DNA of 49,662 nt, from NCBI GenBank assembly GCA_009993955.1, contig JAACSL010000028.1, positions 1-49,662 on the forward strand, given 5' to 3'. This document shows positions 23,891 through 47,814 of this stretch, one piece after another. This DNA is from Paraglaciecola sp. GTDB taxonomy: Bacteria > Pseudomonadota > Gammaproteobacteria > Enterobacterales > Alteromonadaceae. The position numbers were made by a program, and so were the translations under genes. The notes below the pieces were generated by a model. That model was given only the letters and a program-made list of their open reading frames with translations. It did not search any database and had not been told where the DNA came from. Numbering within the stretch: position 1 is the stretch's first letter; each line of letters opens with the position of its first letter.

Positions 23891-24772
23891 TTATTCGCTG
23901 AATAACCATTGCACCGCATCGGCAAACTCCTGTCGCCACAAGGCTTCATTGTGTTCACCACCCGCCACTCGTTTGAATACCATGAGCTCGCGAGGATGGC
24001 CTTGGCTGAGCAATTGGCGCTGCATTTTACCTGTATCAACTATCATGCCGTCACCTTCTTCATCACCAAACATCACATAAAGACGGGCATCGAGAGCAAC
24101 TTTATGCTCTTGTGTATAATCAAATACGCTGTCTGAGTACCAATAAGAGGGGGAAAATAGCCCAGCCTTACTAAATACTTGTGGATAGGCATGAATGGCA
24201 TAATGAGAAATTAACGCCCCCATGGAACTGCCCATGATCGCCGTATGTTGTCGCTCTGGTTTGGTTCGATAATTTGTATCAATATAGGGTTTGACTACCT
24301 CGACTATAAAATCCATGTACTGCTTGCCTTGCGCTTCACCAAAGCGTTTGTTTGGCCACGGTGACAGTTCGTTCATGCGGTACTCGCCACCATTGTCAAT
24401 GCCCACCACAATCAGCTTTAACTTCGCAGCCTGCGCTAGGCCGTCAAGGGTTTCATCAACACCCCACTCCCCCGCATAACTGCTTGCGGCATCAAATAAA
24501 TTTTGCCCGTCGTGCATGTACAATACCGGATAACTGTCAGTGGACTCTGTGTAATCAGGGGGTAAATACAAACGGATGGTACGTTGCCTATCCAAACCAT
24601 CAATTAAAAAAGCAAAGGGCAATACGCTCACAGACGCGCTAGCCGTTGACATTTTTAGCGGAGCCGGGCTTGCTGCGCTGTCTTTGGGGTCAATGTTATC
24701 ACAAGCAGCGACAGCTAAAATGATGCTGCAAATCACAAAAAATCGTACGCTCATCAGGTAGTACAAGCTCAT
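23891..24772 (-). CDS. Lipoprotein esterase (esterase D/CE1-like alpha/beta hydrolase)
   Basis: A 293-residue protein with a lipoprotein signal (lipobox LAVAAC, Cys 24). The alpha/beta-hydrolase core has YPVLYMHDGQNLFD (residues 81-94), nucleophile elbow GSSMG with Ser 183, and a likely catalytic His in AGGEHNEALW near the C-terminus. The fold is that of the PF00756 family (EstD, ferulate/acetyl xylan esterases, Fes). The start overlaps the amylase stop by four bases (ATGA), so both are co-translated. In a glucan operon it may remove acyl groups from the polysaccharide, but the substrate is inference. Confidence 0.85.
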   Translation of the reverse strand: MSLYYLMSVRFFVICSIILAVAACDNIDPKDSAASPAPLKMSTASASVSVLPFAFLIDGLDRQRTIRLYLPPDYTESTDSYPVLYMHDGQNLFDAASSYAGEWGVDETLDGLAQAAKLKLIVVGIDNGGEYRMNELSPWPNKRFGEAQGKQYMDFIVEVVKPYIDTNYRTKPERQHTAIMGSSMGALISHYAIHAYPQVFSKAGLFSPSYWYSDSVFDYTQEHKVALDARLYVMFGDEEGDGMIVDTGKMQRQLLSQGHPRELMVFKRVAGGEHNEALWRQEFADAVQWLFSE

Positions 24773-26739
24773 AGTTGGATAACCACCGATTGCACGGGGC
24801 CTAAAATCAGGCTGACCAAAGCTTGTTGGTTTGCCGCTTGCACGTCAATAGTTTCCCCCGTCAACAGATCGTGGCCACTGAGCACACCGCTGGGCAAGGT
24901 CAAGTTAACAAACGCTTGACCAATAATGGGCAGATCAAGTGCTACCCTTGCTGTCTGAGAAAAATGGCTGATAACCAGTAATTTACCCTTGGCTGAGGTG
25001 CGCACAAAGGCGATTAATTTGTCAGCATCGGCTTGAACAGCCCCTTGAACGCTGTTGTCATCGTGCAAAATACTGACATTTTCTTTGCGCACTGGCACAG
25101 GAACATAAGCCCCTAACATCGCCGGATGATAAGCAGAAATACGCATGACTTTGAGATAATACTCTCGTAAGGCGCTTTCTTCTGCACTGAGCTGGCCGCC
25201 ATCAAATTTGCCACCATTCATCCACCGTTGGTGAGCAGGTACGCCACCATAATCAAAAATACTGGTACGACTGGGATCACCAAAACCTAAATCTTCACTG
25301 CCGTCTTCCCCTACTTCTTGGCCAAAATACAGCATAGTAGGAGAAGCACTGATCAGGGCAGATACCACTAATGCGGGTTTACCCATGCTGGCGCCCCCCA
25401 CTTGACCAGCAAACTCTTGGCTGGCAATGCGTTGTTCATCATGGTTCTCGAGAAAATGCAGCATATGCGCTGAGATGTCTGCAACACCAGCTTGAACTTT
25501 ATGCAAGGTGGCAGCACGCTCTTTGCCCTGCATGATGCCTTTGAGGCTGTCGTAAAAATCAACTTTGTCATACAGGTAATCCATCAAGCCCAATTGAATG
25601 TAGTCTCGATATAAATCTCGGTTGTACACTTCGGCCAACAAAAACGCCTTAGGGTTTTGCGTTTTAATGGCTGAATTTAAATAACTCCAAAACTCCACTG
25701 GCACCATCTCGGCCATGTCATAACGAAAACCGTCCACGCTTTTATCTAACCAATATAAAGCGATATCTCGAAACTTGCGCCACGAACTTGGCACATCTTT
25801 GTCACTCCAAAAAGCATGGTGTTCTGCATAAGCAAGTTTCATATATTGTTCTGGTAAGCGCACAAAATCGTAGCTACCGTCAGGACGCACACCATAGTTA
25901 ACTTTGACAGTTTCATACCAATCGTCGGCATTCGGTTGGGCCAACCTAGAGCCATTGCCTGTCCATTTGGCCGGTGATTCAGCAAACTTACCATCAGCGA
26001 GTGGGTGAGCTTCCCCACCCAGAGCTTGGTAGCTATTTTTCCCTTCTGGCACCTTAAAATCCTGCCCCACAACATAATAAAAGTTGTTGTCTCTGGCGTA
26101 CTCCACGCTGCTATCGTCACTGGCGCCAAAATCTTCCACCCCGGCAGGTTTGGCGAGACTTTGGTAACCGCGAGCCACATGATTGGGCACAATATCAATA
26201 ATCACCTGCATACCGTGTTCATGGGTACGTTTAATCAGCGACTCAAATTCAGCCAGTCGATTGGCAGGATCATCGGCCAAATCAGGGTTAACAGTGTAAT
26301 AGTCTTTCACCGCATAGGGTGAGCCGGCACGTCCCTTCACTACATCGGGATCATCCTGGCTAATGCCGATAGCGCTATAGTCGTTAATGACGGCGTGATG
26401 CGGTATGCCTGTATACCAAATGTGTGTTGTGCCTAATTCTTTGATACCTTGCAGCGCAGCATCGTTAAAGTCACTGAACTTTCCGACACCATTTTGTGCA
26501 ATCGTACCCCAGGCTTGGTTAGTGGTATTTTTATTGCCAAATAAACGCGTGAACACCTGATATACCACCGCTTTGCCTTGTGGCTGCGTGGGTAATAAGG
26601 TTATGGGGTCAACAGCATTTGCCATGGTAGAGGTCGTATCCTGATTGGCGGGCTGGCATGCTAACAAACCACCCATGACACAGGCAGTAAGGGCCAACCA
26701 AGCGGGCGATAAGGGCTTTGCAGATCGTGTAACAGACAT
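24769..26739 (-). CDS. Alpha-amylase family (GH13) lipoprotein
   Basis: A 656-residue endo-acting alpha-glucanase. The lipobox LLAC puts Cys 28 at the mature N-terminus. GH13 regions: I DIVPNH (182-187); II GFRYDMAEM with nucleophile Asp 341; III AFLLAEVYN with acid Glu 370; IV FLENHDEQR with Asp 434. A C-terminal beta domain ends the protein. All catalytic residues are intact. It is the first gene of the operon, and a palindromic operator candidate lies about 120 bases upstream. It probably acts at the outer membrane or in the periplasm on maltodextrins brought in by the receptor at 44611. Confidence 0.94.
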   Translation of the reverse strand: MSVTRSAKPLSPAWLALTACVMGGLLACQPANQDTTSTMANAVDPITLLPTQPQGKAVVYQVFTRLFGNKNTTNQAWGTIAQNGVGKFSDFNDAALQGIKELGTTHIWYTGIPHHAVINDYSAIGISQDDPDVVKGRAGSPYAVKDYYTVNPDLADDPANRLAEFESLIKRTHEHGMQVIIDIVPNHVARGYQSLAKPAGVEDFGASDDSSVEYARDNNFYYVVGQDFKVPEGKNSYQALGGEAHPLADGKFAESPAKWTGNGSRLAQPNADDWYETVKVNYGVRPDGSYDFVRLPEQYMKLAYAEHHAFWSDKDVPSSWRKFRDIALYWLDKSVDGFRYDMAEMVPVEFWSYLNSAIKTQNPKAFLLAEVYNRDLYRDYIQLGLMDYLYDKVDFYDSLKGIMQGKERAATLHKVQAGVADISAHMLHFLENHDEQRIASQEFAGQVGGASMGKPALVVSALISASPTMLYFGQEVGEDGSEDLGFGDPSRTSIFDYGGVPAHQRWMNGGKFDGGQLSAEESALREYYLKVMRISAYHPAMLGAYVPVPVRKENVSILHDDNSVQGAVQADADKLIAFVRTSAKGKLLVISHFSQTARVALDLPIIGQAFVNLTLPSGVLSGHDLLTGETIDVQAANQQALVSLILGPVQSVVIQL

Positions 26740-26856: not shown

Positions 26857-26872
26857 TACATACGTATTCACC
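26857..26872. promoter_or_regulatory. LacI-type operator candidate upstream of the alpha-amylase operon
   Basis: The TACGTA palindrome (26861-26866) is embedded in GAATACGTATG read on the minus strand. The same 11-base core recurs upstream of the TonB-dependent receptor at 47676. A central CG within a palindrome is typical of LacI-family operators. It lies between the amylase gene and the divergent RRM gene. Confidence 0.5.
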
Positions 26873-28087: not shown

Positions 28088-28840
28088 ATGCGTTTAACCT
28101 CACGCTCACTATTATATGTTGTTTGCCTAGTTTTATCATGGTGGACCGTGGCACAAGACATGTTGCAAACCAAGTTATTGGCCGTAGCTAACAATAGCAG
28201 CCAACTACAGTATTATGATAACGGTGAAAATAAAGACCCTTCCATTGGTATTCTTAAGGCCGTTTTACAACAAGCACAACTCGAGGCAAATGTTGAGTTT
28301 ATGCCTTGGGTGCGGGCCTTTTCCATCGCCAAAAATAAGCCGAATACCCTGATTTTAAGCATGATTAGAACACCCGACAGAGAAGCGGATTTCCATTGGA
28401 TTATTAAAGTCAGTAATTTATCCAGAGTATTTATTTCGCTGCGCGACAAACCCGAAAATAAAGTTGATGACATGCAGCAAGCCAAACAAAAACTGATAGC
28501 GGTAGTGCAAGGCTCAGCCAGTTATAACGAACTCACTGCCAATGGATTTTCCGAACAGCAAAACTTATATGTGGTGACAGATTCAGAATTGATGGTCACC
28601 TTACTCGAAAGCGGACGGGTTGACCTCGTGTATGATGATCCCATCAATATTAGGAGTACCCTAGACAAACGCGGTAAAAAAGACCTGGCTATTCGCTATA
28701 AAACCATTGAAGCAGAAAATGAACGTAGCAGTTACATCGCCATAAACAAGGCATCTGATATGCAGATTGTTAATCGATTAGAGCAAGCCGCCCGTGAATT
28801 TGAAAAAACCGCCGAATACACACGTTTGCTCTTAGAGTGA
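28088..28840 (+). CDS. Periplasmic substrate-binding-like protein (SBP_bac_3 type)
   Basis: A 250-residue protein with a signal peptide (SLLYVVCLVLSWWTVAQ) and a two-lobe solute-binding fold. Characteristic stretches are FMPWVRAFSIAKNKPNTLIL and GRVDLVYDDPINIRSTLDK. No permease or ATPase gene adjoins it, as is common for the many orphan members in Alteromonadales, which may act as sensors' ligand binders. The ligand is not predictable. Confidence 0.8.
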   Translation: MRLTSRSLLYVVCLVLSWWTVAQDMLQTKLLAVANNSSQLQYYDNGENKDPSIGILKAVLQQAQLEANVEFMPWVRAFSIAKNKPNTLILSMIRTPDREADFHWIIKVSNLSRVFISLRDKPENKVDDMQQAKQKLIAVVQGSASYNELTANGFSEQQNLYVVTDSELMVTLLESGRVDLVYDDPINIRSTLDKRGKKDLAIRYKTIEAENERSSYIAINKASDMQIVNRLEQAAREFEKTAEYTRLLLE

Positions 28841-28924
28841 CGTGCTGCTTAGGGTGCAGATTTAGCACGCAAATCAAGCATGTTGCCATGTACATGCCGT
28901 CACCTGAATTGCACACTTCGTGGC

Positions 28925-29572
28925 TTATGCCCCTATTTTCTGTGCGGCGTAATAATGATTGCCACCTCGATCTTGATAGGTACACAGCAGGCGCATGCCG
29001 GCCTCTTTCAGGAGTGAGACATAAGCCTGATGGCCCAGTGAAAGACTGTCGATACCCGTACTGAGATCTCGCCAACTAGCCACTTGGCTGGGCGCACTAA
29101 ACAGCAAGTGGCCATGGGGTTTGAGAGCTGATGACATTTTCTGAAGCAATATTTTTTGCTCGTCCTCTGCCAGCAAAAAAATCAACCCAACCGCCACTGC
29201 TGCATCAAAGCGTTGACCAAAAAAATCGCTATCTTGGAAGCGCTCGCAGCGAATGGGAATGTCTGGAAAGCGTTGCTGAAATGCTGTGACGAGGGTCTTG
29301 GCTGAATCGATGGCCCAAAGTTTCAAATTTTTACGCTGTAATTCCCGGGTGATGGGTTCTCCTCCACCACAGGCCACTTCTAACACGCTGGCGCCACGGT
29401 GTAAGCAAGTTGCCCACTCTCCTATCACCTCAGCGCCAATGTTAGATGCATCGCGCTGGCGCAAAAACTCACGGGCATATAGCTCATAAGCCGTTGCAGC
29501 GTCCAGATTTACGCCGTTTTCTGCGCCAGGCTTTTTGCCCAAGGTTGACTGAGCATGTTCATCATCAGCCAT
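28925..29572 (-). CDS. Class I SAM-dependent methyltransferase
   Basis: A 215-residue cytosolic methyltransferase. Motif I is VLEVACGGGEPITREL (about residues 59-74), followed by LWAIDSAKTLVTAFQQRFPD, and a post-motif region FDAAVAVGLIFLLAEDEQ. The methyl acceptor is unknown. It overlaps the upstream acetyltransferase gene by eight bases, so it is the last gene of the carbamoyltransferase operon. That position suggests tailoring of the same product, though it could be an unrelated passenger. Confidence 0.87.
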   Translation of the reverse strand: MADDEHAQSTLGKKPGAENGVNLDAATAYELYAREFLRQRDASNIGAEVIGEWATCLHRGASVLEVACGGGEPITRELQRKNLKLWAIDSAKTLVTAFQQRFPDIPIRCERFQDSDFFGQRFDAAVAVGLIFLLAEDEQKILLQKMSSALKPHGHLLFSAPSQVASWRDLSTGIDSLSLGHQAYVSLLKEAGMRLLCTYQDRGGNHYYAAQKIGA

Positions 29573-30086
29573 CGATGGGTGCCAAGGGTGTCGGCAACAT
29601 CAATTGATAAAAACCAACATCTAACCAACGGCCAAATTTAAACCCAGCCTGTTTAATGGTACCGGTGTGCACAAAACCAAATTTCTCGTGCAAGGCGATA
29701 CTGACCGTATTTTCCATGTCAATACCCCCAATCATGGTGTGGTAATCCTGTTCAATGGCCTTGTTGATGATGGCGTCTAACAGTTGCTTACCCAAACCTT
29801 GACCGCGAAAATCCTGATGGACGTAGAGTGAATGCTCTACACAATATTTATAGGCCGGACGTGGTCGAAAACTGCCGTAACTGGCAAAACCAGCCAAGGT
29901 ATTGGCCTCATCACACAGGCCAATAACCGGTTGGTTAGCGGCGTGTTTACTGGCAAACCATTCTGCCATGGTGGCCATGCTGCGCGGATGATAATCGTAC
30001 AAGGCGGTGGAATTGATAATGGCCTCGTTGAAAATGGCTAAAATGGCCTGGGCATGGTTGTGGTAATCACAAGATATAAGCTGCAT
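29565..30086 (-). CDS. GNAT family N-acetyltransferase (phosphinothricin acetyltransferase-like)
   Basis: A 173-residue acetyltransferase. The acetyl-CoA loop is YVHQDFRGQGLGKQLLDAII (about residues 90-109). The segments ALYDYHPRSMATMAEWFASK and HEKFGFVHTGTIKQAGFKFG match the Pat/Bar branch that acetylates amino groups of small amino-acid-like compounds. It starts 12 bases after the SxtK-like peptide gene and overlaps the methyltransferase, so it belongs to the same operon. The substrate is unknown. Confidence 0.9.
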   Translation of the reverse strand: MQLISCDYHNHAQAILAIFNEAIINSTALYDYHPRSMATMAEWFASKHAANQPVIGLCDEANTLAGFASYGSFRPRPAYKYCVEHSLYVHQDFRGQGLGKQLLDAIINKAIEQDYHTMIGGIDMENTVSIALHEKFGFVHTGTIKQAGFKFGRWLDVGFYQLMLPTPLAPIDG

Positions 30087-30098
30087 CGCCGACCTTGC

Positions 30099-30251
30099 TC
30101 AAAATAGGGTATAAATAAAGGTCGCCAGCGCAGACTGTTGCGTCGCCACAACCAAACCGCCTAACAAAGCTAAAATGACAATGATGGGCAATAACCAGAC
30201 TTTTTTACGTACCCGCAAAAAGGCCCATAAATCTTGTACAAATTCCCACAT
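30099..30251 (-). CDS. SxtK/DUF5989-like small membrane protein, 50 residues
   Basis: The frame from ATG 30251 to TGA 30099 encodes a short amphipathic start (MWEFVQDLWAFLRVRKK), then VWLLPIIVILALLGGLVVAT as one membrane helix, and the tail ALATFIYTLF. The basic VRKK before WLLP and the ALATFIYTLF end match what I know of DUF5989 proteins, related to SxtK of saxitoxin clusters. The ATG shares a base with the stop of the SxtJ-type gene (TAATG), so translation is coupled. Its place directly after carbamoyltransferase and SxtJ supports the assignment. Function is unknown. Confidence 0.85.
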   Translation of the reverse strand: MWEFVQDLWAFLRVRKKVWLLPIIVILALLGGLVVATQQSALATFIYTLF

Positions 30252-30682
30252 TAAAAGGGCTTCTCCAAATCTTCTTTATTGTTGTTGTCTTGGCTATCTT
30301 GCCAAAAACTCGCATGACGTTTATTCCCGTACAGCCGACCTTGATACTGCAAATTGCCAAAAACACGCAATACCACGCCTATGGGAAAGATCAGCAAATA
30401 AAATGCTGCGGCCAGAATAATTCGTGTATTGATCCAGCCTACAATACTGGCGATGGCCATCCACAATCGATAAGGGTAAATGAGGGCGGGCGCATAGACT
30501 ACACGCACACTCAACAAACTTAGACTGATTAACAGGGGCCAGCAATACCCTAGGCTTAACTCGGGGCTACGCGCAAACAACCACGGGATTAATCCCATAA
30601 ACAACACGGGAAATACCCAGCTTAGGGTGATAGCAAAATCATCTAAGCTGGCTTTATCAACCTGTTTAAGGTGACTAAACAT
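30251..30682 (-). CDS. SxtJ family membrane protein
   Basis: A 143-residue protein with about four hydrophobic segments, including LSWVFPVLFMGLIPWLFA and TRIILAAAFYLLIFPIGVVL. A polar tail ends in DSQDNNNKEDLEKPF. The conserved WINTRIILAAAFYLLIFPIG then LRVFG matches SxtJ, a membrane protein of unknown role encoded next to the carbamoyltransferase SxtI. It follows the carbamoyltransferase stop by five bases and overlaps the next gene by one base. Confidence 0.85.
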   Translation of the reverse strand: MFSHLKQVDKASLDDFAITLSWVFPVLFMGLIPWLFARSPELSLGYCWPLLISLSLLSVRVVYAPALIYPYRLWMAIASIVGWINTRIILAAAFYLLIFPIGVVLRVFGNLQYQGRLYGNKRHASFWQDSQDNNNKEDLEKPF

Positions 30683-30687
30683 TGGGC

Positions 30688-32586
30688 CTAATCCTCCGCA
30701 AAGCTCACCGCTTTAGCGGCCGTAATGGCGGCAAAGGGCATGGCTTTTTTGTCGAGTACTATATTGTTCATGATCAAATAATCCATGTCAGTGGCCAGAA
30801 AACAACGAATAGCATCTTTTGGTGAACACACCGGCGGCTCACCGCGCACATTGAACGAGGTGTTGATCAGCACACCACAACCACTTAGCGTTTTAAAGGC
30901 TTGGAGCAGCGCATAAAATGCTGGATTGGTATGCTGGTGCACGGTCTGCACTCGTGCCGAATTATCAACATGAGTAATAGCGGGCAAGGTTGAGCGTATT
31001 TGATTGAGTTTGTCGATACCAAAAAAGCCTTCTACTTCACTTTTCACCCGCAAGTGCTCTTTCACATCTGCCACCAGCAACATGTAGGGGCTGGCGCAGC
31101 TTATATCAAAATATTCACTCACGTCTTCAGCCAATACAGCCGGGGCAAAGGGCCGAAATGATTCACGTTGTTTAATTTTAAGATTCATGATCGACTGCAT
31201 CTTTTGGTTGCGTGGATCACCAATGATGGAGCGATTCCCCAGGGCTCGTGGTCCAAACTCCATACGCCCTTGAAACCAACCAATCACCGAACCAGCTTCA
31301 ATGAGGGCGGCAGTGTGGTGAAATATGGTTGCCGTATCGATGACCTGATGACTCAACTGCTGCCTAGCCAGCTCATCAAGGATGGCCTCATTGCTGAATT
31401 GAGGACCGAGGTAAGCGCCTTGCATAGCATCGTTACTCAGGTCAATTTGCTGCGTTTTTCGTTCTGCACCGAAATATTGATGCCATGCGATGAGCGCTGC
31501 ACCGAGCGCCCCGCCAGCATCACCCGCCGCCGGTTGAACCCAAATATTCGCAAATAAACCAGAACGTAAAATCCGCCCATTTGCCACACAGTTAAGGGCT
31601 ACGCCCCCTGCTAAACACAGGTTTTTACACCCAGTTTTGCGTTGCGCGTGGCGAGCGATGTTTAATACGATGTTTTCTGTCACCACTTGAATGGAGCGCG
31701 CTAAATCCATTTCTTTTTGACTAACCGGGTAACGGCTTGATTTGGGCGGCCCGCCAAATAGTTCGGCAAAATGCTCATTCACCATGGTGGCACCCGCCGG
31801 ATAATCAAAATAATGCATATTGAGGGCAAAGCTGCCGTCTTCCCGCACATCAATTAAATGCTGATAAATTAAGTCTGCATAGATGGGTTCACCATAGGGT
31901 GCCAAACCCATGAGCTTGTATTCACCCGAGTTGACTTTAAAACCACAATAATAGGTAAACGCGGAGTACAACAAACCCAACGAATGGGGAAATTGAATTT
32001 CCCACAATGCGGTGAGCTCTTTTCCCTTGCCCAGCCAAGCCGAAGAGGTAGCCCATTCACCAACCCCGTCTAAACACAATACCAAGGCTTCATCAAAAGG
32101 ACTGGGGTAAAAAGCCGACGCAGCATGGCTACGATGATGCTCACTGAATAATAAGTTTGGCAGTGTTGGTTTTTTATCGTGCTGTATTTCCTCATCGAGA
32201 CTGCTTTTATGGCGATGTGCGCGTTGTTGATGCACGAGCTTTCTGCACTCACAGCGCAATACCGACTTCAGATAGAGTTTCTCTTTTAACCACACAGGCA
32301 TGGCACGCAAAAACGATAAAAAACCCTTAGGGGCAGTAGCGAGGTAGGTTTCTAATAAGCGTTCAAATTTTAATAAGGGTTTGTCGTAGAAAATGATGGC
32401 ATCTAGTTCTTCTAATTCGCATTGCGCCTCTTGTAGACAGTATTCAATGGCCAGAGCCGGAAACGATGGGTCATGTTTAATTCGACTAAAACGCTCTTCC
32501 TGAGCCGCCGCGACAATTTTTCCATCTACCACGATACAGGCTGCGCTATCGTGGTAATAAGCAGAAATGCCCAAAATGCGCGTCAT
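30688..32586 (-). CDS. O-carbamoyltransferase (NodU/CmcH/SxtI type)
   Basis: A 632-residue two-domain enzyme that moves a carbamoyl group from carbamoyl phosphate through carbamoyl-AMP to a hydroxyl. The N-terminal Kae1-like domain opens MTRILGISAYYHDSAACIVV and has the metal-binding HHRSHAASAFYPSPF (about 150-164) and GVGEWATSS. EFGPRALGNRSIIGDP starts the YrdC-like C-terminal region, which ends with NTSFNVRGEPPVCSP. All key motifs are present and the length is normal. It is first in a five-gene operon with SxtJ, SxtK-like, GNAT and methyltransferase genes. The acceptor could be a sugar, lipid or secondary metabolite. Confidence 0.92.
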   Translation of the reverse strand: MTRILGISAYYHDSAACIVVDGKIVAAAQEERFSRIKHDPSFPALAIEYCLQEAQCELEELDAIIFYDKPLLKFERLLETYLATAPKGFLSFLRAMPVWLKEKLYLKSVLRCECRKLVHQQRAHRHKSSLDEEIQHDKKPTLPNLLFSEHHRSHAASAFYPSPFDEALVLCLDGVGEWATSSAWLGKGKELTALWEIQFPHSLGLLYSAFTYYCGFKVNSGEYKLMGLAPYGEPIYADLIYQHLIDVREDGSFALNMHYFDYPAGATMVNEHFAELFGGPPKSSRYPVSQKEMDLARSIQVVTENIVLNIARHAQRKTGCKNLCLAGGVALNCVANGRILRSGLFANIWVQPAAGDAGGALGAALIAWHQYFGAERKTQQIDLSNDAMQGAYLGPQFSNEAILDELARQQLSHQVIDTATIFHHTAALIEAGSVIGWFQGRMEFGPRALGNRSIIGDPRNQKMQSIMNLKIKQRESFRPFAPAVLAEDVSEYFDISCASPYMLLVADVKEHLRVKSEVEGFFGIDKLNQIRSTLPAITHVDNSARVQTVHQHTNPAFYALLQAFKTLSGCGVLINTSFNVRGEPPVCSPKDAIRCFLATDMDYLIMNNIVLDKKAMPFAAITAAKAVSFAED

Positions 32587-32761
32587 GAAATATGCTGTCT
32601 CACTGTTTAATTAGTCGCTCACTATGCCGTAAAAAAAGGTCTGGCTGCATTGAATACGATTGCAAAACAGTCAGCAGTGACCCCGGCCAAAAATTGATGA
32701 TAATATGCCCGAGTGAATGAATACAAATATTTAAAATTCAAGGCGTTAATGCGATATTCCC

Positions 32762-34645
32762 ATGACAATTAAAAAATCTCAGCGTCCTCCAGTAGCCTCT
32801 GATCCTAGGTCGCAGCCTAGCAACATGCGCAAGCCTAACCAAACCAAGCTTTTTTACATCATTATGCTGCTGATCCCCTTTGTTTTGCTGGGGACAGTGG
32901 AAGGCGTATTAAGGCTGACAGGCTTTGGACATAGCTATGCCTTATTTATTCCCGCCGCGGGCATTGCCGACTTTATGCAACCAAACCCCGAGTTAATTAA
33001 GCGCTATTTTCATCAGCCCGAACTCGCCCCCGATGTCAGCCCCGATACCGTATTGTTTAAACAACAAAAAAGTCCTAATAGCTTTCGTATTGTGATCCAA
33101 GGGGGCTCAACGGCAGCGGGCTTTCCCTTTGGCCGTTTTGGCTCACTCACAGGACAGCTGCAAACTCGGCTGAAACGTCTGTATCCTGATAAAAATATTG
33201 AAGTCATCTCTACCGCAATGGCCAGTATCAATAGCTATACCCTGCTCGACACAGTCGACGAGATCATCGCCATTCAACCTGATCTAGTATTGATTTATGC
33301 AGGGCATAACGAATATTTAGGCGTCATGGGGCTTGGCTCGGTTTATGCGGGTAAAGGCGGCCACGCTGCTAACTTACTGTTCTTGAAATTAAAAGAATTG
33401 CGTTTATTTCAATTGGTGCAACTTGCCTACTATCACCTTTTTGCCACTGCTGATGCCACTGGCATCACGACCGCCAAGGGCAGTTCACATACCTTGATGG
33501 CCCAGGTCGCCAAAGAAAAAAATATTCCCTACAACAGTCCACTCTATCAGGCCGGCCTAACACAATTTACCGACAACTTAGATCGCATCTTAAGCAAGTA
33601 TCAGCAAGCAGACATTCCGGTCTTAATTGGCACCTTGGCGGCCAACGAGGTGGATCAAGCCCCCTTTGCCTCAGCCCCAGATTTGGATTTCTCAAAAGTG
33701 GATGCACTCTGGAAACAAGGGCAGTTAGCGGCGGCAAAACAGCAATTGCAACAACAGCTAAACGACCATCCTGATAATGCAGACAGTCATTTCATGCTAG
33801 CAAAAACCCTGATGTTTGAAGGCGATCTGCCTACTGCACAAACACACTTTACCGCGGCCATGGATCGCGATTTATTGCGCTTTCGCGCGCCGAGTGAATT
33901 TAACACCATCATTCGCCACCAAGCTAAGGCTCATGGGGCGTGGCTAGTCGACAGTCAAGCTTTTATCCGACAAAACAATCAAGGTTGGTTAGACAATCGG
34001 GTGATGTACGAACACCTTCATCCCAATCAATTGGGGTATTTTTTATTGGCTGAAGCCTACTTGCAGCATATTGTTGAACGGCAATTACTCGGCTCACCGC
34101 CACTAGCAGTGAGTACTCAACAAGCCTGGCAAGACATGCCCATCACCGACACCGACATCGTCTACGCTGATTTCAAAATCAAAAGCTTAAAAGCTGACTA
34201 TCCCTTCTCGAAAACGCCACAAAAAGTCGAGTTTGGCGAAGCGACAAGTTTTGCCGAAAAAACCGCACTCAGCTGGCTCTCGGGGCGGGCTTGGTTGCAA
34301 ATTCAGCAAGATCAACTGGCGTATTACCAGCAGCAACAACAACTGCCACAGGCAGCAAAAGTAGCGGGCATTCTGTTTGATGCCCTGCCCAATAACAGCA
34401 AAATTGCTGAGGTAGCGAGCTTGCTGTACCGCGATATTCAAGACCCAAACATGGCGTATTATTACGCACGTAAGGCCCATGAGCTGCAGCCCGACAATAC
34501 CGAATACTTGATGAATCTGGCCCAAATGCAGTTTCAGTTGAAACGCCGAGAGGCGGCCATTAGCAGTTTACAACAGGTACTGCATATCGACCCAAACCAT
34601 GCCAAGGCCCAATACTACTTGCGCCAATTGCAGGCTGAGCAATGA
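32762..34645 (+). CDS. Membrane-anchored SGNH hydrolase with TPR repeats (paralogue 1)
   Basis: A 627-residue protein with a basic N-terminus and one membrane helix (LFYIIMLLIPFVLLGTVEGV, about 30-49), so the rest is probably periplasmic. The SGNH esterase core has VIQGGSTAAGFP (Ser 116), YAGHNEYLG (Asn 183) and YEHLHPNQLGYFLLAE supplying the catalytic Asp/His-type end block. A TPR pair is inserted between these (about 305-365), and more TPRs close the protein (about 540-627). It is divergent from the carbamoyltransferase operon and overlaps its paralogue by four bases. Acyl transfer or deacylation of a glycan is plausible. Confidence 0.88.
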   Translation: MTIKKSQRPPVASDPRSQPSNMRKPNQTKLFYIIMLLIPFVLLGTVEGVLRLTGFGHSYALFIPAAGIADFMQPNPELIKRYFHQPELAPDVSPDTVLFKQQKSPNSFRIVIQGGSTAAGFPFGRFGSLTGQLQTRLKRLYPDKNIEVISTAMASINSYTLLDTVDEIIAIQPDLVLIYAGHNEYLGVMGLGSVYAGKGGHAANLLFLKLKELRLFQLVQLAYYHLFATADATGITTAKGSSHTLMAQVAKEKNIPYNSPLYQAGLTQFTDNLDRILSKYQQADIPVLIGTLAANEVDQAPFASAPDLDFSKVDALWKQGQLAAAKQQLQQQLNDHPDNADSHFMLAKTLMFEGDLPTAQTHFTAAMDRDLLRFRAPSEFNTIIRHQAKAHGAWLVDSQAFIRQNNQGWLDNRVMYEHLHPNQLGYFLLAEAYLQHIVERQLLGSPPLAVSTQQAWQDMPITDTDIVYADFKIKSLKADYPFSKTPQKVEFGEATSFAEKTALSWLSGRAWLQIQQDQLAYYQQQQQLPQAAKVAGILFDALPNNSKIAEVASLLYRDIQDPNMAYYYARKAHELQPDNTEYLMNLAQMQFQLKRREAAISSLQQVLHIDPNHAKAQYYLRQLQAEQ

Positions 34646-36450
34646 GTCAACATCACCACACCTCCCGCAAAAAAACTGGCGATACAAGAGCTAAAAAAAA
34701 CGCGGATAAGCTAATCCAAAGCCCTGCATTAGCCCCACGGCGCAAAGCGCTCATGTGGTTAATTACCCTAAGCATTCCCATCGTATTTTTTGTTGTCAGT
34801 GAGCTGCTGTTACGGCTGTTTGCTTATGGTCAATCACTGCCGCTGTTTATTGCAAACCCAGCCAACAGCCATTACATATTGCCCCGTCCTGACATTGTTA
34901 GACGTTATTTTGCCCAAGATGCAGACCTGCCTAGCGTGACCATGGAAGCCAACTTTTTACTCAAAGAAAAACCCAGCAATGGCTATCGGGTGTTTGTGCA
35001 AGGAGGATCCACCGCGGCTGGTTTCCCTTACGGCTTGGGTGCTTCACTGGCCGGCATGTTAGACAAACGCTTACGTGCCAGTTTGCCGCAGCACCATGTG
35101 GAAGTGGTGAATACCGCCCTCGCCGCCGTGAACTCTTACACGGTATTAGACTTAGCTGACGAAATCATTGCCCAACAACCTGACGCCATTTTACTGTACA
35201 TGGGCCACAACGAATATTTAGGCTTGCTGGGCGTTGGCTCAAATTACACCGCCGCCAATTCACAGGCCAGCACCCTGTTGTTTTTGCAACTCCAAGAGCT
35301 GCGACTCTTTCAACTGCTGCAAAACACTTATCAACAATTAAGCCATCAAGACCGTGATGCCGAGGCAAAAACCTCAAGCAGTCAATCTCGAACCTTTATG
35401 GCCAAAGTGGCCAAACACAAAGATATTGCCATGGATTCGGATCTTTACCGCGCTGGCCTTGAGCAGTTTTCCACCAATCTCACTCTGCTGCTCGACAAGT
35501 ACCAGGCGGCGGGCATTCAGGTGTTCTTAGCCACCATAGCCAGCAATATTGCCGACCAAAAACCGTTTGCCAGTGCTGAATTGACCGCGCAGCAGCAGGC
35601 TGCTTTAGGCAATATTCAAAGCCTGGTCGCGGCACAACAAACTCAATCAGCCATCAGTGCCAGTGATGAGTTAGCTCAGCGCTGGAACAGCGATAACTCT
35701 GCCCTCGCCCACTTTGCCTTGGGACAAATCTACCGACAGCTTGGCCAAGCATCAGCAGCACAGCAACAGTTAACCCTTGCAAAAGATCTCGATTTGCTGC
35801 GATTTCGCGCCCCCAGTGAGATCAATCACATCATCAAACAACATGCTGCGCGATACAGCAATGTGGTGTTGGTAGATGTTGAATCCGGCTGGCAGCAGCA
35901 GTCACCCCTCGGGCTGATTGGTGACAACCTGATGTTGGAGCACCTCCACCCTAATGTGCAGGGCTATTTTTTATTGGCTGATACCTTTTACGCAGCCATG
36001 CAAACAAAACAGAATTTCGCTGACTGGCAGAGCATAGATACCGCGCAAGCGTGGAAGGAACGCCCGCTGTTACCCGCTGAGGAATATTTAGGTTTTGCGA
36101 AAATTTTACAGCTGAAGAACGACTACCCCTTTACTCAACTCAGTGCAGATCGAAAGGTACAAGCATTACGTTTGCCCCCAGCTGACGATTGGCAACTTGC
36201 CTTGGGCAAAAGCCATTTTTTAAAACAAATTGATTGGTTAACCATGATGCAGCGATGTCTCAGTCAATACCAAGCTGAAAATAACCTAGCCATGACCTTA
36301 AAAACGGCGGTGTTATTGGCTGATGCCCTGCCCCATGACCCAGTGATTAATGCCTTTGTGGCAAATTTGTACGTGGGTTTGAAACAACCTGCATTGGCCG
36401 ACTATTACAAAAAGCGCAGTGAATTAGCGACACCTTCTAGCAACTCATAG
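34642..36450 (+). CDS. Membrane-anchored SGNH hydrolase with TPR repeats (paralogue 2)
   Basis: A 602-residue homologue of the preceding protein with the same plan. It has a membrane helix (WLITLSIPIVFFVVSELLL), VQGGSTAAGFPYG (Ser 123), MGHNEYLG (Asn 190) and LEHLHPNVQGYFLLAD. The middle TPR-like insert is present, but the C-terminal TPR part is shorter. Catalytic motifs are intact in both copies, so neither is a decayed duplicate. It starts within the stop of paralogue 1 (ATGA), and the two are surely co-expressed. They may act on different acyl groups or as a heterodimer. Confidence 0.88.
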   Translation: MSQHHHTSRKKTGDTRAKKNADKLIQSPALAPRRKALMWLITLSIPIVFFVVSELLLRLFAYGQSLPLFIANPANSHYILPRPDIVRRYFAQDADLPSVTMEANFLLKEKPSNGYRVFVQGGSTAAGFPYGLGASLAGMLDKRLRASLPQHHVEVVNTALAAVNSYTVLDLADEIIAQQPDAILLYMGHNEYLGLLGVGSNYTAANSQASTLLFLQLQELRLFQLLQNTYQQLSHQDRDAEAKTSSSQSRTFMAKVAKHKDIAMDSDLYRAGLEQFSTNLTLLLDKYQAAGIQVFLATIASNIADQKPFASAELTAQQQAALGNIQSLVAAQQTQSAISASDELAQRWNSDNSALAHFALGQIYRQLGQASAAQQQLTLAKDLDLLRFRAPSEINHIIKQHAARYSNVVLVDVESGWQQQSPLGLIGDNLMLEHLHPNVQGYFLLADTFYAAMQTKQNFADWQSIDTAQAWKERPLLPAEEYLGFAKILQLKNDYPFTQLSADRKVQALRLPPADDWQLALGKSHFLKQIDWLTMMQRCLSQYQAENNLAMTLKTAVLLADALPHDPVINAFVANLYVGLKQPALADYYKKRSELATPSSNS

Positions 36451-36561
36451 TGATTGTATTAAAATTACCACCGCTCATAGCGCACTCAAACCAAGGATAG
36501 CTTTCATTTACATGGCCTTGCCATGTCAATATTCTTCCACTTGCAGACAAGTACACACACT

Positions 36562-38367
36562 TTATTTATGCTGGTAGTAATCGTGTAAAACTTGCCAAGC
36601 CTGTTTTTTAACACCCGTTTCAGACAGTATGCCTTTGCGATTCCAAAAATCTTGAATTTGCTGCAAAGGCCGCCGAGGTGAGCGGAAATCCTTGAGGATC
36701 CATGGGGTTAAACCCCTTAAAAAGCTTATGTTATCAATCATCTTAAGGTTGTTGCGGTAAACGTCTGCTTGATATTCCTCGGTCCAACGCTGCCCAGCCT
36801 CACCATGCAAACCTTGCAGTGCCCCCGCGCCTAACTCACTCATGATCATCGGTTTGTGGTACTCACTTTGCCATTGGATCTGTGCGCAACTTTGTGGAGT
36901 GCCGCCATACCAGCCGCAATAACTATTAATACCAATCACATCCACTACTGCGGCCAGCGGATCATCAATCAGCTTGCCCTTTGCGCTGTTACTTTGTGTA
37001 TCGAGGGCGGCGGTGATAAGACGACTAGGATCAAGGGTTCGCGCGTGTGCCGCGAGTTTAGTGAGAAAATTTAAGCGCTAAGCGCCTTGAGGTGTTTCGT
37101 TGGCAACCGACCATAAAATAATGGCCGCGCGGTTTTTATCGCGACTGATCATGTCAGAAAGTTGCTGTTCGGCCAACAAATACACCGCTGGCTCAGCAAA
37201 TAACACTGTCCAATAAACCAGGATTTCTGCCCACACCAGCAAACCCAATTCATCGGCCATGCGCAGCATGCTTTCATTGTGGGGATAATGGGCCAAACGC
37301 ACAAAATTGCAGCCTAGTTCGAGGGCTGCTTGCAGTGTGGCGCGGGCGTCGGCTTCACTCCATTCACGCCCCGGGTGCAAGAAAGACTCCTCGTGAATGG
37401 CGATACCTTTGAGAAAAATCGCTTGGCCGTTAAGCAAAATATCTTCAGCTTGCGTGCTGATGTGGCGAAAGCCTATTTTATCACTGATAAGCTCTGATCC
37501 TGCCCGCAGCTGAATGTCATACAACTTAGGCGAAGATGGCGACCACAAGCTCGGCGTTGCCGAAATAACAACCTGTCCGTGACCCTGCTCATCAATAGCA
37601 ATAGCTTGTTTGATGCCAAGTTCAGGGATGGTTATGTAAGCCTTATCTGGGTTTCCAGCCACACTGAGATTCAGTGAAATTTGATCGTAACGGCCGGGGC
37701 TAAGGGCAATTTGATAATCCTTAACATGAATGTTGTCGAGGGTAGTTAAACTCACTGAACGGGTGATGCCACCGTAATTCCACCAATCAGTATTCACGGT
37801 GGGGATCTGCTGGCGCTCACGTTTATTATCTACTTTCACCACCACAAAATTGTGACCTGCACGCAGGTGTTGACTGACATCAAATTCAAAAGGTGTGAAA
37901 CCGCCCACATGCTCGCCCACGCGTTGACCATTTACGTAAACTATTGCGTGGTAGTTGACCGCAGCAAAATGTAACAGATAGGTTTTATCTTGTTGTGGAG
38001 TCAGGGTGAATGGCTTGTGGTACCACACCGTGCCTTCATAAAAAAACAATGTGTCATCTTGGCTATTCCAATCCCCCGGCACCTGCAGCTTTTGGGCTTT
38101 GTCAAAATTGTATTCAATTAAGTCACTGGGTGTTTTGGCGGTTTCAGCCAAAAAATAACCATCATCCTTGGCTTCATAGCGGTGATTGTAATAACCATTT
38201 TCATAGGGGTCAGGAATAATGTCCCATGCACCGTTGAGACTTACATGCACCCGATTATTGCTATTTTGCAGAAGGGAGTTACTCGACGCTGCCGCGACAA
38301 ATGATGACAAAAACAAAACTAAGCAAAAACTTGTTACACGTATACCCAAGGAGATAATGTGAATCAT
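36562..38367 (-). pseudogene. GH2 beta-glucuronidase/beta-galactosidase-like gene with one in-frame amber stop
   Basis: Reading from ATG 38367, a signal peptide and the GH2 sugar-binding, Ig-like and barrel domains follow. Codon 430 is TAG (37080-37078). After it the same frame continues as GH2 without any shift (FLTKLAAHARTLDPSRLITA ... MIMSELGAG ... LRGLTPWILKDF) to the TAA at 36562. Ignoring the stop, the gene has 601 codons, close to the 603 of E. coli GusA. The acid/base Glu (WSVANE, residue 424) lies before the stop and the nucleophile Glu (SELG, residue 511) after it, so the truncated product would be inactive. It is a very recent nonsense mutation, a read-through case or an assembly error. 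Confidence 0.88.
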
Positions 38368-38802: not shown

Positions 38803-38838
38803 AATGCATTTGCATTACCTCTCTTTTGTGCATAAAAT
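38803..38838 (+). promoter_or_regulatory. prlF promoter with palindromic operator candidate
   Basis: TTGCAT (38810-38815) and TAAAAT (38833-38838) are spaced by 17 bases, a good sigma-70 promoter 35 bases upstream of prlF. The palindrome AATGCATTTGCATT (38803-38816) covers the -35 box, the place expected for autorepression by the AbrB-type antitoxin. Confidence 0.5.
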
Positions 38839-38873
38839 ATCACAATTCGTTACGTAAACCTGTGGAGAACATT

Positions 38874-39206
38874 ATGCTAGCGCAAATGGCATTAGAAGCA
38901 GAATCAACATTGACAGACCGTTTTCAGACCACAGTGCCAAGCCCTGTTCGTCAGGCTTTGCATTTGGGTAAGAAAGATAAGATTAAATACGTCATTCAAT
39001 CTGATGGCAGTGTGCTTATGAAGCGCTTCGAAGCTGAGGATGGCGATCCTGTGCTTGATCAATTTCTATCCTTCTTGGCGGCTGATATGCAGAAGCACCC
39101 TGAAAAGCTACAACCACTAACTGACAGTATGCGTCAAAGCGTGGCATCGCTGGTTGCAGACGTTGATATTGATTTGGATACTGCGCTGTCTGATGAGGAT
39201 GCATAA
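38874..39206 (+). CDS. prlF: Type II antitoxin PrlF (SohA), AbrB-like
   Basis: A 110-residue antitoxin with a SpoVT/AbrB swapped-hairpin domain at the N-terminus (TLTDRFQTTVPSPVRQALHL then KKDKIKYVIQSDGSVLMKRF). The acidic C-terminus (DVDIDLDTALSDEDA) probably wraps the toxin. The ATG at 38874 has GGAG at the right distance. In E. coli, PrlF neutralises the YhaV nuclease and represses the operon. The toxin gene starts two bases after its stop. Confidence 0.92.
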   Translation: MLAQMALEAESTLTDRFQTTVPSPVRQALHLGKKDKIKYVIQSDGSVLMKRFEAEDGDPVLDQFLSFLAADMQKHPEKLQPLTDSMRQSVASLVADVDIDLDTALSDEDA

Positions 39207-39208
39207 AT

Positions 39209-39682
39209 TTGCCTGATAACGTCCCGATAGTAGTCAACGGTTGGACGCTATTTACCCATCCTCTTTTTGCTGAGCAATATCAAATACGGAAAGCAAAGGT
39301 CGAAGCGTTGAAGGCAAAAGATCCGAAGGGCTATACCAAGAAGAATGACACAAAACGCTTAGCAGCTATCCATAAACTGGCCTATGAAATTATTCCCCGA
39401 GACCCAACGTTACCGGATTATCGACAAGGGAAGACATTAGGCGAAAATAATAAACACTGGTTTCGAGCTAAGTTTTTTCAGCAGTATCGGCTGTTTTTTC
39501 GATACCACCTCGAATCCAAAATCATCGTTTATGCGTGGGTCAATGATGAAGGAAATAAACGAGCCTACGACAGCAAAACAGATGCTTACAAAGTGTTCGC
39601 AAAGATGCTTAAGTCAGGCGATCCCCCGGATGATTGGGATGCTCTTTTAAAAGCTGCCACGGACGCGAAAGTAGCACTTTAA
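39209..39682 (+). CDS. yhaV: Type II toxin YhaV, ribonuclease
   Basis: A 157-residue YhaV family toxin of the RelE-like group that cleaves mRNA. Typical stretches are VNGWTLFTHPLFAEQY at the N-terminus, IPRDPTLPDYRQGKTLG in the middle and FFQQYRLFFRYHLESKIIVY with YAWVNDEGNKRAYDSKTDAY at the end. It is complete and uninterrupted, so the module may be functional. It starts with TTG, with GAGG upstream, two bases after prlF. Confidence 0.93.
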   Translation: MPDNVPIVVNGWTLFTHPLFAEQYQIRKAKVEALKAKDPKGYTKKNDTKRLAAIHKLAYEIIPRDPTLPDYRQGKTLGENNKHWFRAKFFQQYRLFFRYHLESKIIVYAWVNDEGNKRAYDSKTDAYKVFAKMLKSGDPPDDWDALLKAATDAKVAL

Positions 39683-39758: not shown

Positions 39759-40114
39759 CTAAACCGACTGATTCGATTTCCGCCATCCAATCTGTCGACC
39801 TCGTTTTCCTTCTTGCAGTCGTTTTCCCGTTAGTGCTTCCACTTCTTCGATAAATCGCTCGTTACCTAATATCAATCCTTTGTTCGCAGCATTGCGGATA
39901 TCGTCTAACAGTTTTCCTTCGACCTGATATTTAAATAGTTCAAGATAATGTGACTGCCTTTCTTCATCTGTCTTACCCAATCTTTGGTATAAGGTGTGAG
40001 GAGTATTACCTGCTTTCCCAAGCCATTACTTTGGTAACTAGACCAACTGTAGTGAGCCGGATCCTTCACCATAGCGGCTCTGACCGGATTTAACTCAATG
40101 TAGCGAATCTGCAT
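39759..40114 (-). pseudogene. RAYT C-terminal fragment, 5'-truncated and frameshifted
   Basis: From 40114 the frame reads RYIELNPVRAAMVKDPAHYS and WSSYQSNGLGKQVILLTPYT, the conserved C-terminal half of RAYT transposases. Near 39983-39986 it shifts by one base, apparently a lost A in a short A-run. RAYT sequence then continues in another frame (LGKTDEERQSHYLELF ... GNERFIEEVEALTGKRL ... GKRGRQIGW) to the stop at 39759. The part upstream of RYIELNP is missing and the break falls at the pullulanase terminator. It cannot encode an active enzyme. Confidence 0.8.
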
Positions 40115-44610: not shown

Positions 44611-47600
44611 TCATAGTGAATACGTTACCCCTAAGAAGTACTGGGTACCGAAAAACTGTACCGTGCCCGTTAAGTCTTCTTGACCAAAATAACTCTTAGT
44701 AGGCTCATCTGTTAAGTTGTTGATCTGGAATACCACTCCCAACTCTTCACTAATGTCATAAGACATTTGGAAATCCATAACGACCTCTGAGTCAAAATTA
44801 ACTGTTTGGTCGTTAACGGCTACCTGTTTAGATACAAAGGCATCACGATAACGGGTACTCAAACGCGTTTCGAAGCCTTCGTAAGTCCAAAATACCGTGG
44901 CTTGTGCCACGTTTTCAGATAGACCGGGTAACTGGATAGAAAAGACCGAATCCGTGAGCGTGCGGGTAATTTCACTCTCAGTGAATGAATAACTTGCGCT
45001 CACACCTAAGCCGGACCAAGCACCGGGAAGGAAGTCATAAATCTGCGTATAGGTTAATTCTAATCCGCGAATATAACCGCCGTTAGCGTTGTTCACAGCC
45101 GTGTCATAACGACCATTTTCAGTCGGTACAATCACTGACAAGGGATCACCATTGGCATCCACTGCGCGTACCGGTGTTTCACCAGGTGCATCAGGCTCAA
45201 CAAACACTGGTACCGATACTTCTGTGGGCACAATAAAGCCGTTACCCGCAAAGTCATAAGGTTCTAGTGATACATCATCAATGAAGGACTTAATGTCTTT
45301 GTAGAATACTGCCGCAACAAAGGCACCTTCGGTCTCCTCGAAATAATATTCATAAGATAGATCGTACTGGTCTGCGTAAAACGGCCGTAAATATGGACTA
45401 TTTCGGCTGTTACCACTGATCTTAGCCGTTGGCGTTGACAAACTAATTTCGCCAGTATCTGGGTTTTGGCTTGCCGTAACGGTGGCAACGGTGGTGGTGG
45501 TATTGGCCGCAAAACGGTTAATTGGCGCACGCCCCATTACTTTCGCTGCAGCAAAACGCAACTGCTGGTTAGTGGTCAATTTGAAGTTTAAGTTTAATGA
45601 AGGTAGATAATCCGTGTATGTATCAGACAATAAAGCTGGGCGATAGAAACTGTTGATCAAACCAGCATCATCGGTAATGTATTGCGCACCGCGAGTTGGG
45701 TCGCCTACCGTGACTTGGACTTCATCACCGTTTTCATCAAATACCGTTACCGTGGTACTCACGTCTTGCAAGGTAGTCGAACTTTGTTTGGACTCAACAC
45801 GACGAATACCGACGTTACCAGAAATAGGCAGTCCGGCTATTTCCATATCCAGATTTGCCATAATGTATGCGGCGGTTACTTCTTCAAACACATCGCCACT
45901 TTCTTGCACAGACCAAGCAGTATTGGGGCCTTCGTTACCCGTTGGGCTATTAATTACGCCAGGATGGCCCACACCCCAGGTTTGCACCGGCTGTGGAATA
46001 CCACTTGGGAACCAAGCGTTTAATGCTTTATCTAGGTCAATAGACAAGTAACTTGGAAAATAGCCAAATTCACCCTGCCAGTCGACAACTTGCACCATGT
46101 CTTGGGTCAAGCGTAAGGGCGGTTGACTGACTGAAAACGCAGAGTCGTTACCATACTCATATACGGAACGATCGTTGTTGTATTCACGATCTGAGTAACG
46201 CACACCAAATTCAATGGACGAAACATATTCATTATCGAGATCGTATTTTAAATCAAAGCGATACGCTTTCAGTTCGTCTTTGTTTTCATAGGGATAAATG
46301 CCGTATTTACTGACCATCACGCGATCAATATCGGCAAAGGCACCCTGCTGATTAAAGGCCAAATCCGGTAGATCCAAACCATTCAATAAATAGGAAATCG
46401 AGATATTTTCATCAAACTGCGGGTTGCCCGCATTGGCGTCTTCACCCACCAAGCTCCATAACAAACCATTGCGGAAGTTACTCTCGGCTTTAGACAAACT
46501 CACATCAAAGGTCATCGACAAATTGTCTGTTGCTTGCCAATCCGCTTTAATCCCTGCACTAAACACTTGGTCAAAATCTTGGTTGTCGTCATTCACCAAC
46601 TCAACACGGGTAAAGCTGTTGGCCGTGCGATTGAAGGTACCACCAATCACATTGTTCCCAGACAATATCGGGTTTGTAATGGAAACCTGATTGCCACCGA
46701 GTTTTACCCGAAAACCGCGCGCAAATTCCTTAGAATCAAACTTAGACAGGAATACATCGGTTTTTAAGGTGAAATTATCCGTCGGTGCCCACTGTAAGGC
46801 CGCCATATAACCGTTACGGGTTTCTTCGCCACCTTGGTGTTGCATCTCGAAGCCTTCACTGATTTTTTCACAGTTCGGACAGGTGGCGGAGCCATCGGTA
46901 TCGTTTGGTTTATTGTCAACGTCTACTTCGGCGTTATAGGCCAAACCGATAAACTGGGTAGATACACTCGGTTGAAATAAACGCGCATAACCTAAGGCTA
47001 AACCTAAGGTGTCATCCAAAAACTTAGTTTGAAAAGAGACACTTAAGCGATTACCAAACTCTTTGGCATCTGATACTTCACTCGCACGGTCATTAAACAT
47101 ACCACGCGCATTTAAACTGAGTTTGTACGGCTCACTGATGCTTAAAGGGTTGGCCGTTTCTAGTTCGACAGTACCTGCAACACCGCCTTCAATCAGCGAA
47201 GCCTTGGGTGATTTATATACGGCTGCTGAACTGATCAATTCAGAAGGATACTGGTCAAACTCGATGGAACGGGAACCACTTGTGGATACTTGCTCACGAC
47301 CGTTTAAGGTTGAAAAGACAAAATCCCCCGACAAACCACGTATGTTAATTTCTGCTGCTTGTCCGCCAGTTCGCACTGCGGAAATACCCGGCAAACGGGT
47401 TAAGGCATCGGCCATAGATACATCAGGCAAGCCACCCAGATCGTCGGCTGATATCTGTTCTGATACCGTATCACCAAAACGCTTTTGGTTGAGTGATTGA
47501 ATAAGGCTCGTAGCAAAACCACGTACCTCAATTTTTTCAATTTCATTACCGGCTTGCTCTGGGGCAGCTTGTTCTACTTCGACTGCGGCTTCTTGTGCGA

Positions 47601-47797: not shown

Positions 47798-47814
47798 CAT
47801 GCATACGTATTCAA
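47798..47814. promoter_or_regulatory. LacI-type operator candidate upstream of the TonB-dependent receptor
   Basis: TACGTA (47804-47809) lies within GAATACGTATG read on the minus strand, identical over 11 bases to the site at 26857-26872. It is about 125 bases upstream of the receptor ATG, in the 250-base gap after the halogenase gene. A partial copy, GAATACGTTACC, is seen near 44618-44629 at the end of the receptor gene, upstream of pullulanase. Confidence 0.5.

Follow-up and report, generated by a model that had tools for sequence, protein, structure and literature searches.

What does a gene cassette do in which an O-carbamoyltransferase is encoded together with two small membrane proteins, SxtJ and DUF5989, and opposite a pair of SGNH proteins? 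The question arises for the stretch of DNA analysed here (the window), 49,662 nucleotides of Paraglaciecola sp. that form the complete contig JAACSL010000028.1 (assembly GCA_009993955.1; genome of 4.16 Mb in 82 contigs). We consider a transmembrane carbamoyl relay of the Tyr-shuttle kind, running without a membrane-bound O-acyltransferase (MBOAT), to be the most likely working of this real and conserved cassette, with a probability of roughly 0.6. An earlier note on this DNA had listed seven genes, all of which are present according to both the list of open reading frames (ORFs) and Pfam:

30099-30251, minus strand: DUF5989 peptide, 50 amino acids, C-terminal FIYTLF (PF19451, 1.5e-24, profile positions 1-49 of 49); proposed Tyr carrier
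30251-30682, minus strand: SxtJ membrane protein, 143 amino acids (PF19588, 2.7e-11); proposed scaffold or conduit for loading of the Tyr
30688-32586, minus strand: O-carbamoyltransferase, 632 amino acids (Carbam_trans_N 8.5e-109, Carbam_trans_C 9.6e-73); proposed maker of activated carbamoyl
32762-34645, plus strand: SGNH1, 627 amino acids, with an N-terminal transmembrane helix, an SGNH domain with TPR insert and a C-terminal TPR (Lipase_GDSL_2 1.9e-10, TPR matches); proposed terminal transferase
34642-36450, plus strand: SGNH2, 602 amino acids, old paralogue with intact catalytic residues (Pfam SGNH match 3.8e-9); proposed second terminal transferase
29565-30086, minus strand: GNAT acetyltransferase (Pfam 5.7e-19)
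28925-29572, minus strand: methyltransferase (Pfam Methyltransf_25, 2.6e-11)

DUF5989 is a Pfam family of unknown function, and no paper on it was found among open-licence publications. Loci for comparison were chosen from lists of DUF5989 matches, not every match being fetched: 81 at first (the window and 80 others) and later 163 non-duplicate ones, which with nine duplicates make 172 in total. The loci are related to each other, so that counts across them are not independent, and their ORFs were called by a simple script, with wrong frames possible in G+C-rich loci. The C-terminus of DUF5989 read xxYxx[F/Y], mostly FIYTLF, in 161 of 162 loci, the remaining copy being cut by a contig end; the strict form FxYxxF was present in 141 of the 162. 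Among the 14,744 ORFs of the non-duplicate loci, two besides DUF5989 ended in FxYxxF, namely an MBOAT (locus L052) and a 68-residue ORF (L212). In addition, 34 plasmid records were found, four of which were inspected, one being from Gemmatimonadota; the DUF5989 tail was the same in all four. In an alignment of 158 distinct sequences, only a Trp, a Pro and the tail Tyr were invariant, although its rows had been picked by a pattern requiring the Tyr; the tail count over 162 loci was free of that pattern.

The peptides contain 4.27 Lys/Arg residues each before their single hydrophobic stretch and 0.05 after it. This charge distribution predicts an N-in/C-out topology with the tail facing the periplasm. 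With about 50 residues, one span and a C-terminal FxYxxF, DUF5989 has a build like that of DltX, whose tail is given as FLYFGF (PMC11035591). For DltX and MBOAT proteins, it has been described that the Tyr of the FXYXXF tail accepts an acyl group, with the Ser of an SGNH transferase as the next recipient (PMC12148441). By analogy, the tail suggests DUF5989 as a covalent carrier, beyond the role of a partner. The FIYxxF tail of DUF5989, which is new here, had escaped the earlier note, as had the link of the cassette to alpha-glucan genes, described below. In searches for a solved relative of DUF5989, none was found.

How firmly the cassette holds together was seen from its distribution. DUF5989 occurred in 66 of 395 genomes of the window's family (65 above the curated cut-off), in 8 of 60 relatives, in 58 of 398 genomes drawn from the phylum and in 60 of 369 from the class. 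Because only 2 of 21 other genomes of the window's genus (among the 60 relatives) carry it, we regard DUF5989 as accessory. The first 81 loci contained the carbamoyltransferase in 78 cases, SxtJ in 77 and an SGNH protein of the window's type in 51. Both the carbamoyltransferase and SxtJ lay within 4 kb of DUF5989 in 146 of 162 loci, which bears out the earlier note's view that the transferase has the two membrane proteins as partners, and shows these partners to be constant. Within the same distance, 11 loci lacked the carbamoyltransferase and 14 lacked SxtJ, some of them being contig ends or having an SxtJ too diverged for the profile. Relative to DUF5989, the carbamoyltransferase gene was situated upstream in 86 loci and downstream in 63, and the remaining 13 had no such gene nearby on the same strand. 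On pSymB of the standard laboratory strain Sinorhizobium meliloti 1021, near 484 kb (L121, 13536-15993), SxtJ, DUF5989 and carbamoyltransferase genes are consecutive; the profile detected no window-type SGNH gene within the 28 kb that were read there. Another locus (L156) carries a tandem pair of DUF5989 copies near 5001-5358.

The five-gene operon of the earlier note, which included the acetyltransferase and the methyltransferase, did not survive this comparison, as it was present in 1 of 81 loci, the window itself. In all 172 loci, the acetyltransferase was confined to the window, and the methyltransferase gave a single weak match outside it (L158, 4.7e-5). Since neither travels with the remaining genes, both were excluded from the cassette. 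The acetyltransferase is closest to ArsN1/arsinothricin and phosphinothricin N-acetyltransferases, below every curated cut-off; its role may lie in detoxification and not in the cassette.

The SGNH genes show a family-wide association with DUF5989. A profile built from 75 SGNH proteins detected the window type (E 1e-30) in 62 of 390 family genomes, 61 of which also carry DUF5989; the two genome lists were compared by eye, and the draws of 395 and 390 genomes may differ slightly. In the sole exception (G772), the SGNH gene is cut by a contig end. Conversely, five genomes with DUF5989 were missing from the SGNH list (G524, G609, G694, G790 and G697, the last below the cut-off). An SGNH gene lay close to the cassette in 45 of 48 family loci. 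Thus, the check set by the earlier note came out in its favour, since the SGNH pair and the carbamoyltransferase operon occur together in a conserved manner, and a chance neighbourhood was rejected on the basis of the 61 of 62 genomes. An SGNH protein of any type was recognised near DUF5989 in 62 of 81 loci, 51 by profile and 11 by Pfam or by a BLAST cluster with a Pfam-named member, the Pfam-named ones in L052, L060, L107, L110 and L113 being below curated cut-offs. Even three separated DUF5989 copies that lack the carbamoyltransferase and SxtJ adjoin an SGNH gene, in L047 (a second copy, genome G023), L069 (G524) and L202 (weak Pfam match). The genomes of L047, L069 and L115 encode carbamoyltransferase and SxtJ elsewhere.

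SGNH1 matches the solved SGNH fold, and its Ser116, Asn183, His418 and His420 were invariant in 75 of 75 aligned relatives. Together with the conservation of 142 carbamoyltransferase positions in at least 98% of 138 relatives, this agrees with the earlier statement that the catalytic motifs are intact. The cassette thus encodes a membrane-anchored SGNH protein with complete catalytic residues, and a single N-terminal hydrophobic stretch supports the placement of the SGNH proteins on the periplasmic side. The description of the two as SGNH-TPR paralogues was right in part: Pfam recognised the SGNH domain in both and TPRs in SGNH1, while SGNH2 had no Pfam TPR match of its own. Their genes overlap by 4 bases (ORF list). 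In a quick tree, the paralogues fell into two clades of 34 and 35 rows (Shimodaira-Hasegawa-like approximate likelihood-ratio test 99 and 93) with complete catalytic residues in both; SGNH1 and SGNH2 therefore appear to be products of an old duplication of which both copies were kept active. A longer SGNH type (694-725 amino acids) adjoins a TonB receptor gene in L135, L136 and L137; no DUF5989, carbamoyltransferase or SxtJ was found in the 11-12 kb read there, and those genomes hold the trio elsewhere.

Judged by its Pfam domains, the window enzyme is predicted to be an O-carbamoyltransferase (PF02543 and PF16861 with 364.6 and 243.7 bits, both above the curated cut-off). Its solved relatives are novobiocin carbamoyltransferase (5.6e-94), GdmN and TobZ. 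With NodU/CmcH-type O-carbamoyltransferases such as TobZ and GdmN, which are known from soluble or lipo-oligosaccharide substrates, it shares both domains and the conserved blocks; unlike them, it travels with two small membrane proteins. The predicted structure of SxtJ comprises three helices (predicted local distance difference test 86.7, predicted template modelling score 0.64). The last residue of SxtJ is nearly always Phe (column of F143, at least 90%), usually in the form xxPF or xxQF.

Given this linkage, tail, predicted topology and fold, the relay would run as follows. Activation of carbamoyl from carbamoyl phosphate and adenosine triphosphate is known for the enzyme family, and the cytoplasmic carbamoyltransferase would carry out this step. 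Jointly with SxtJ, it would then load the Tyr in the periplasm-facing FIYxxF tail of DUF5989. The carbamoyl-Tyr tail would hand the group to the Ser of the SGNH protein, which would place it on a hydroxyl of a glycan or another exported substrate. More speculatively, an alpha-glucan, or a product made when alpha-glucans are present, might be the acceptor.

By analogy, the cassette most likely works like the Dlt and Pat systems without being a member of either. Dlt D-alanylation of teichoic acid (DltB, DltX, DltD) likewise combines a short single-span peptide carrying an FxYxxF tail with an SGNH recipient, as far as described in PMC12148441 and PMC11035591. In place of DltA/DltC and the MBOAT DltB, however, the cassette has the carbamoyltransferase and SxtJ, the transferred group would be carbamoyl, and DUF5989 was rejected as a DltX by profile, four sequences being without a DltX match. 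PatA-PatB peptidoglycan O-acetylation and other MBOAT-SGNH pairs show the same C-terminal tail and an SGNH partner (PMC12148441). In those systems, tail and MBOAT form a single fused protein, whereas here the tail belongs to a separate peptide in a genome without an MBOAT match.

Could DUF5989 nevertheless be a usual acyl carrier that serves an MBOAT from another place in the genome, with the adjacency of the carbamoyltransferase being secondary? As far as the cited descriptions go, the tail is known from acyl systems only, and in L052 an MBOAT gene adjoins the trio. That MBOAT, however, has its own FIYFDF end, and the constant partners of DUF5989 are the carbamoyltransferase and SxtJ. Moreover, a search of the window's genome (given as 100% complete) gave no MBOAT match, whereas the control search did find those of Bacillus subtilis and Lactococcus lactis, and Pfam found none among the cassette proteins. 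The tail therefore cannot serve an ordinary MBOAT here, and we give this explanation hardly any credit. More weight, even if we still hold it to be unlikely, is due to a direct action of the carbamoyltransferase on a cytoplasmic sugar nucleotide, lipid-linked sugar or small molecule in the manner of NodU and TobZ, with SxtJ and DUF5989 as a mere membrane tether and the Tyr tail as a docking end. The enzyme is indeed closest in sequence to solved soluble carbamoyltransferases, NRPS-like (nonribosomal peptide synthetase) or glycosyltransferase genes lie near some loci, and neither carbamoyl-Tyr nor a carbamoyl-Tyr relay was found in the literature searched (open-licence papers, no preprints). 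Such direct action leaves unexplained why the tail is identical to that of acyl shuttles and why SGNH proteins and DUF5989 are tied together throughout the family. The latter also speaks against the quite improbable view that the SGNH proteins belong to the alpha-glucan locus as esterases, remove acetyl or carbamoyl from glycans and share just a regulon with the trio: 61 of the 62 SGNH genomes carry DUF5989, and SGNH or ALGX-type genes adjoin the trio outside alpha-glucan loci, too (L049, L079, L108, L109 and L112, above the Pfam cut-off).

Several observations weigh against the carbamoyl relay. It leaves unexplained how a cytoplasmic enzyme gains access to a periplasmic Tyr. Among solved structures, SGNH1 matches esterases best, and DltD, PatB and AlgX were absent from the 50 matches listed, which excludes nothing. 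SxtJ, tried as a small MBOAT, showed no likeness to the single MBOAT compared, and no DltX profile row appeared for the four DUF5989 sequences at E up to 10 (filters drop weak matches). In 19 of 81 loci, some of them cut by contig ends or badly framed, DUF5989 had no recognised SGNH gene in its vicinity, and neither had the lone DUF5989 copies in L115, L152 and L155. In eight more genomes with DUF5989 apart or at a contig end, the carbamoyltransferase was above the cut-off in 5, SxtJ in 5 and both in 3. One of these genomes, G803, is 97% complete and encodes SxtJ but gave no match to the carbamoyltransferase; the remaining ones are incomplete or cut.

What the relay might act on is hinted at by the surroundings of the cassette, for which 49 loci were considered, namely 48 from the family plus L041, which belongs to the same order. 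An alpha-glucan gene or an associated TonB receptor gene was located within about 10 kb in 44 of them, and in 42 if the receptor is not counted. An alpha-amylase gene on the same strand begins within 200 bases downstream of DUF5989 in 13 of these 49 loci; the window has about 3 kb of further genes separating the two. The window features concerned are:

24769-26739, minus strand: alpha-amylase; context, outside the proposed relay
26857-26870: LacI-type palindrome with 2 mismatches, preceding the alpha-amylase gene by 118 bases
32651-32664: LacI-type palindrome with 3 mismatches to TGCATACGTATGCA, between the divergent carbamoyltransferase and SGNH1 genes; conserved in 16 of 41 such gaps
47800-47813: LacI-type palindrome with 1 mismatch, preceding the gene of the TonB receptor (44611-47676)

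If up to 3 mismatches are allowed, 16 of the 41 gaps that separate carbamoyltransferase from SGNH genes contained the palindrome TGCATACGTATGCA, compared with a mean of 0.39 and a maximum of 3 in shuffles, and with 1 of 116 other (control) promoters (Fisher 4.9e-10, a value that is too small because the loci are related). It was also present in 24 of 35 promoters of genes in alpha-glucan loci. Within the window, three copies were observed and 3.21 expected by chance. A LacI-type MalR regulon has been described in Shewanella (PMC2996990), and we infer that the palindrome is the predicted site of a MalR-like regulator of the LacI type. The comparative evidence suggests a control of the cassette, in the window's family, together with alpha-glucan use through the common palindrome; hence, the acceptor may be related to alpha-glucans.

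The same four kinds of genes, namely carbamoyltransferase, SxtJ, SxtK/DUF5989 and GDSL/SGNH, are recognisable in the published descriptions of the saxitoxin genes sxtI-J-K-L (PMC2679770, PMC2885083). The published table gives the order sxtI (carbamoylation), sxtJ and sxtK (both unknown) and sxtL (decarbamoylation) (PMC2679770). For SxtL, a relationship to GDSL lipases is reported, and SxtJ and SxtK had, according to the same 2010 account, never been functionally characterised (PMC2885083). In the window, carbamoyltransferase, SxtJ and DUF5989 genes are likewise consecutive with an SGNH gene nearby. Unlike the saxitoxin genes, the cassette faces two larger divergent SGNH-TPR proteins, and no further pathway genes were noted in the window. 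In an antibiotic cluster of Pantoea, an SGNH protein and a carbamoyltransferase are encoded close by (pnp1B, pnp1D), both reported as hit in product-less mutants (PMC4010436).

Tentatively, and with odds somewhat against it, these likenesses can be extended to a third general route besides MBOAT and AT3 proteins, in which a soluble carbamoyltransferase and SxtJ would load the Tyr of a DltX-like peptide and an SGNH protein would place the carbamoyl group on exported substrates. Such a relay of four parts would also operate in sxtI-J-K-L, with SxtL as terminal transferase and not as decarbamoylase, which is a prediction rather than a finding. In the window's family, it would be switched with maltodextrin use and modify an alpha-glucan-linked substrate. 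If true, SxtJ and DUF5989/SxtK would gain a testable role, and Tyr-shuttle chemistry would extend from acyl to carbamoyl groups. It would also explain why a cytoplasmic carbamoyltransferase is tied to the membrane and an SGNH protein in many bacteria, and it predicts carbamoylated extracellular glycans.

Promoter and terminator scans of 28800-36700 gave matches not above chance, and RNA elements were not detected at gathering scores. Downstream of the SGNH genes, 38826-39682 (plus strand) encodes a PrlF/YhaV toxin-antitoxin pair (PF15937, 5.6e-38; PF11663, 3.3e-60). It is flanked by short ORFs (39759-39980 and 39905-40114) without a Pfam match, which we take to resemble pieces of transposases associated with repetitive extragenic palindromic sequences. 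A family 2 glycoside hydrolase gene at 36562-38367 (minus strand) is seemingly broken. Its segment 36562-36945 had no Pfam match and, in another frame, presumably corresponds to the C-terminal end, while 37078-38367 encodes the N-terminal portion together with some of the barrel.

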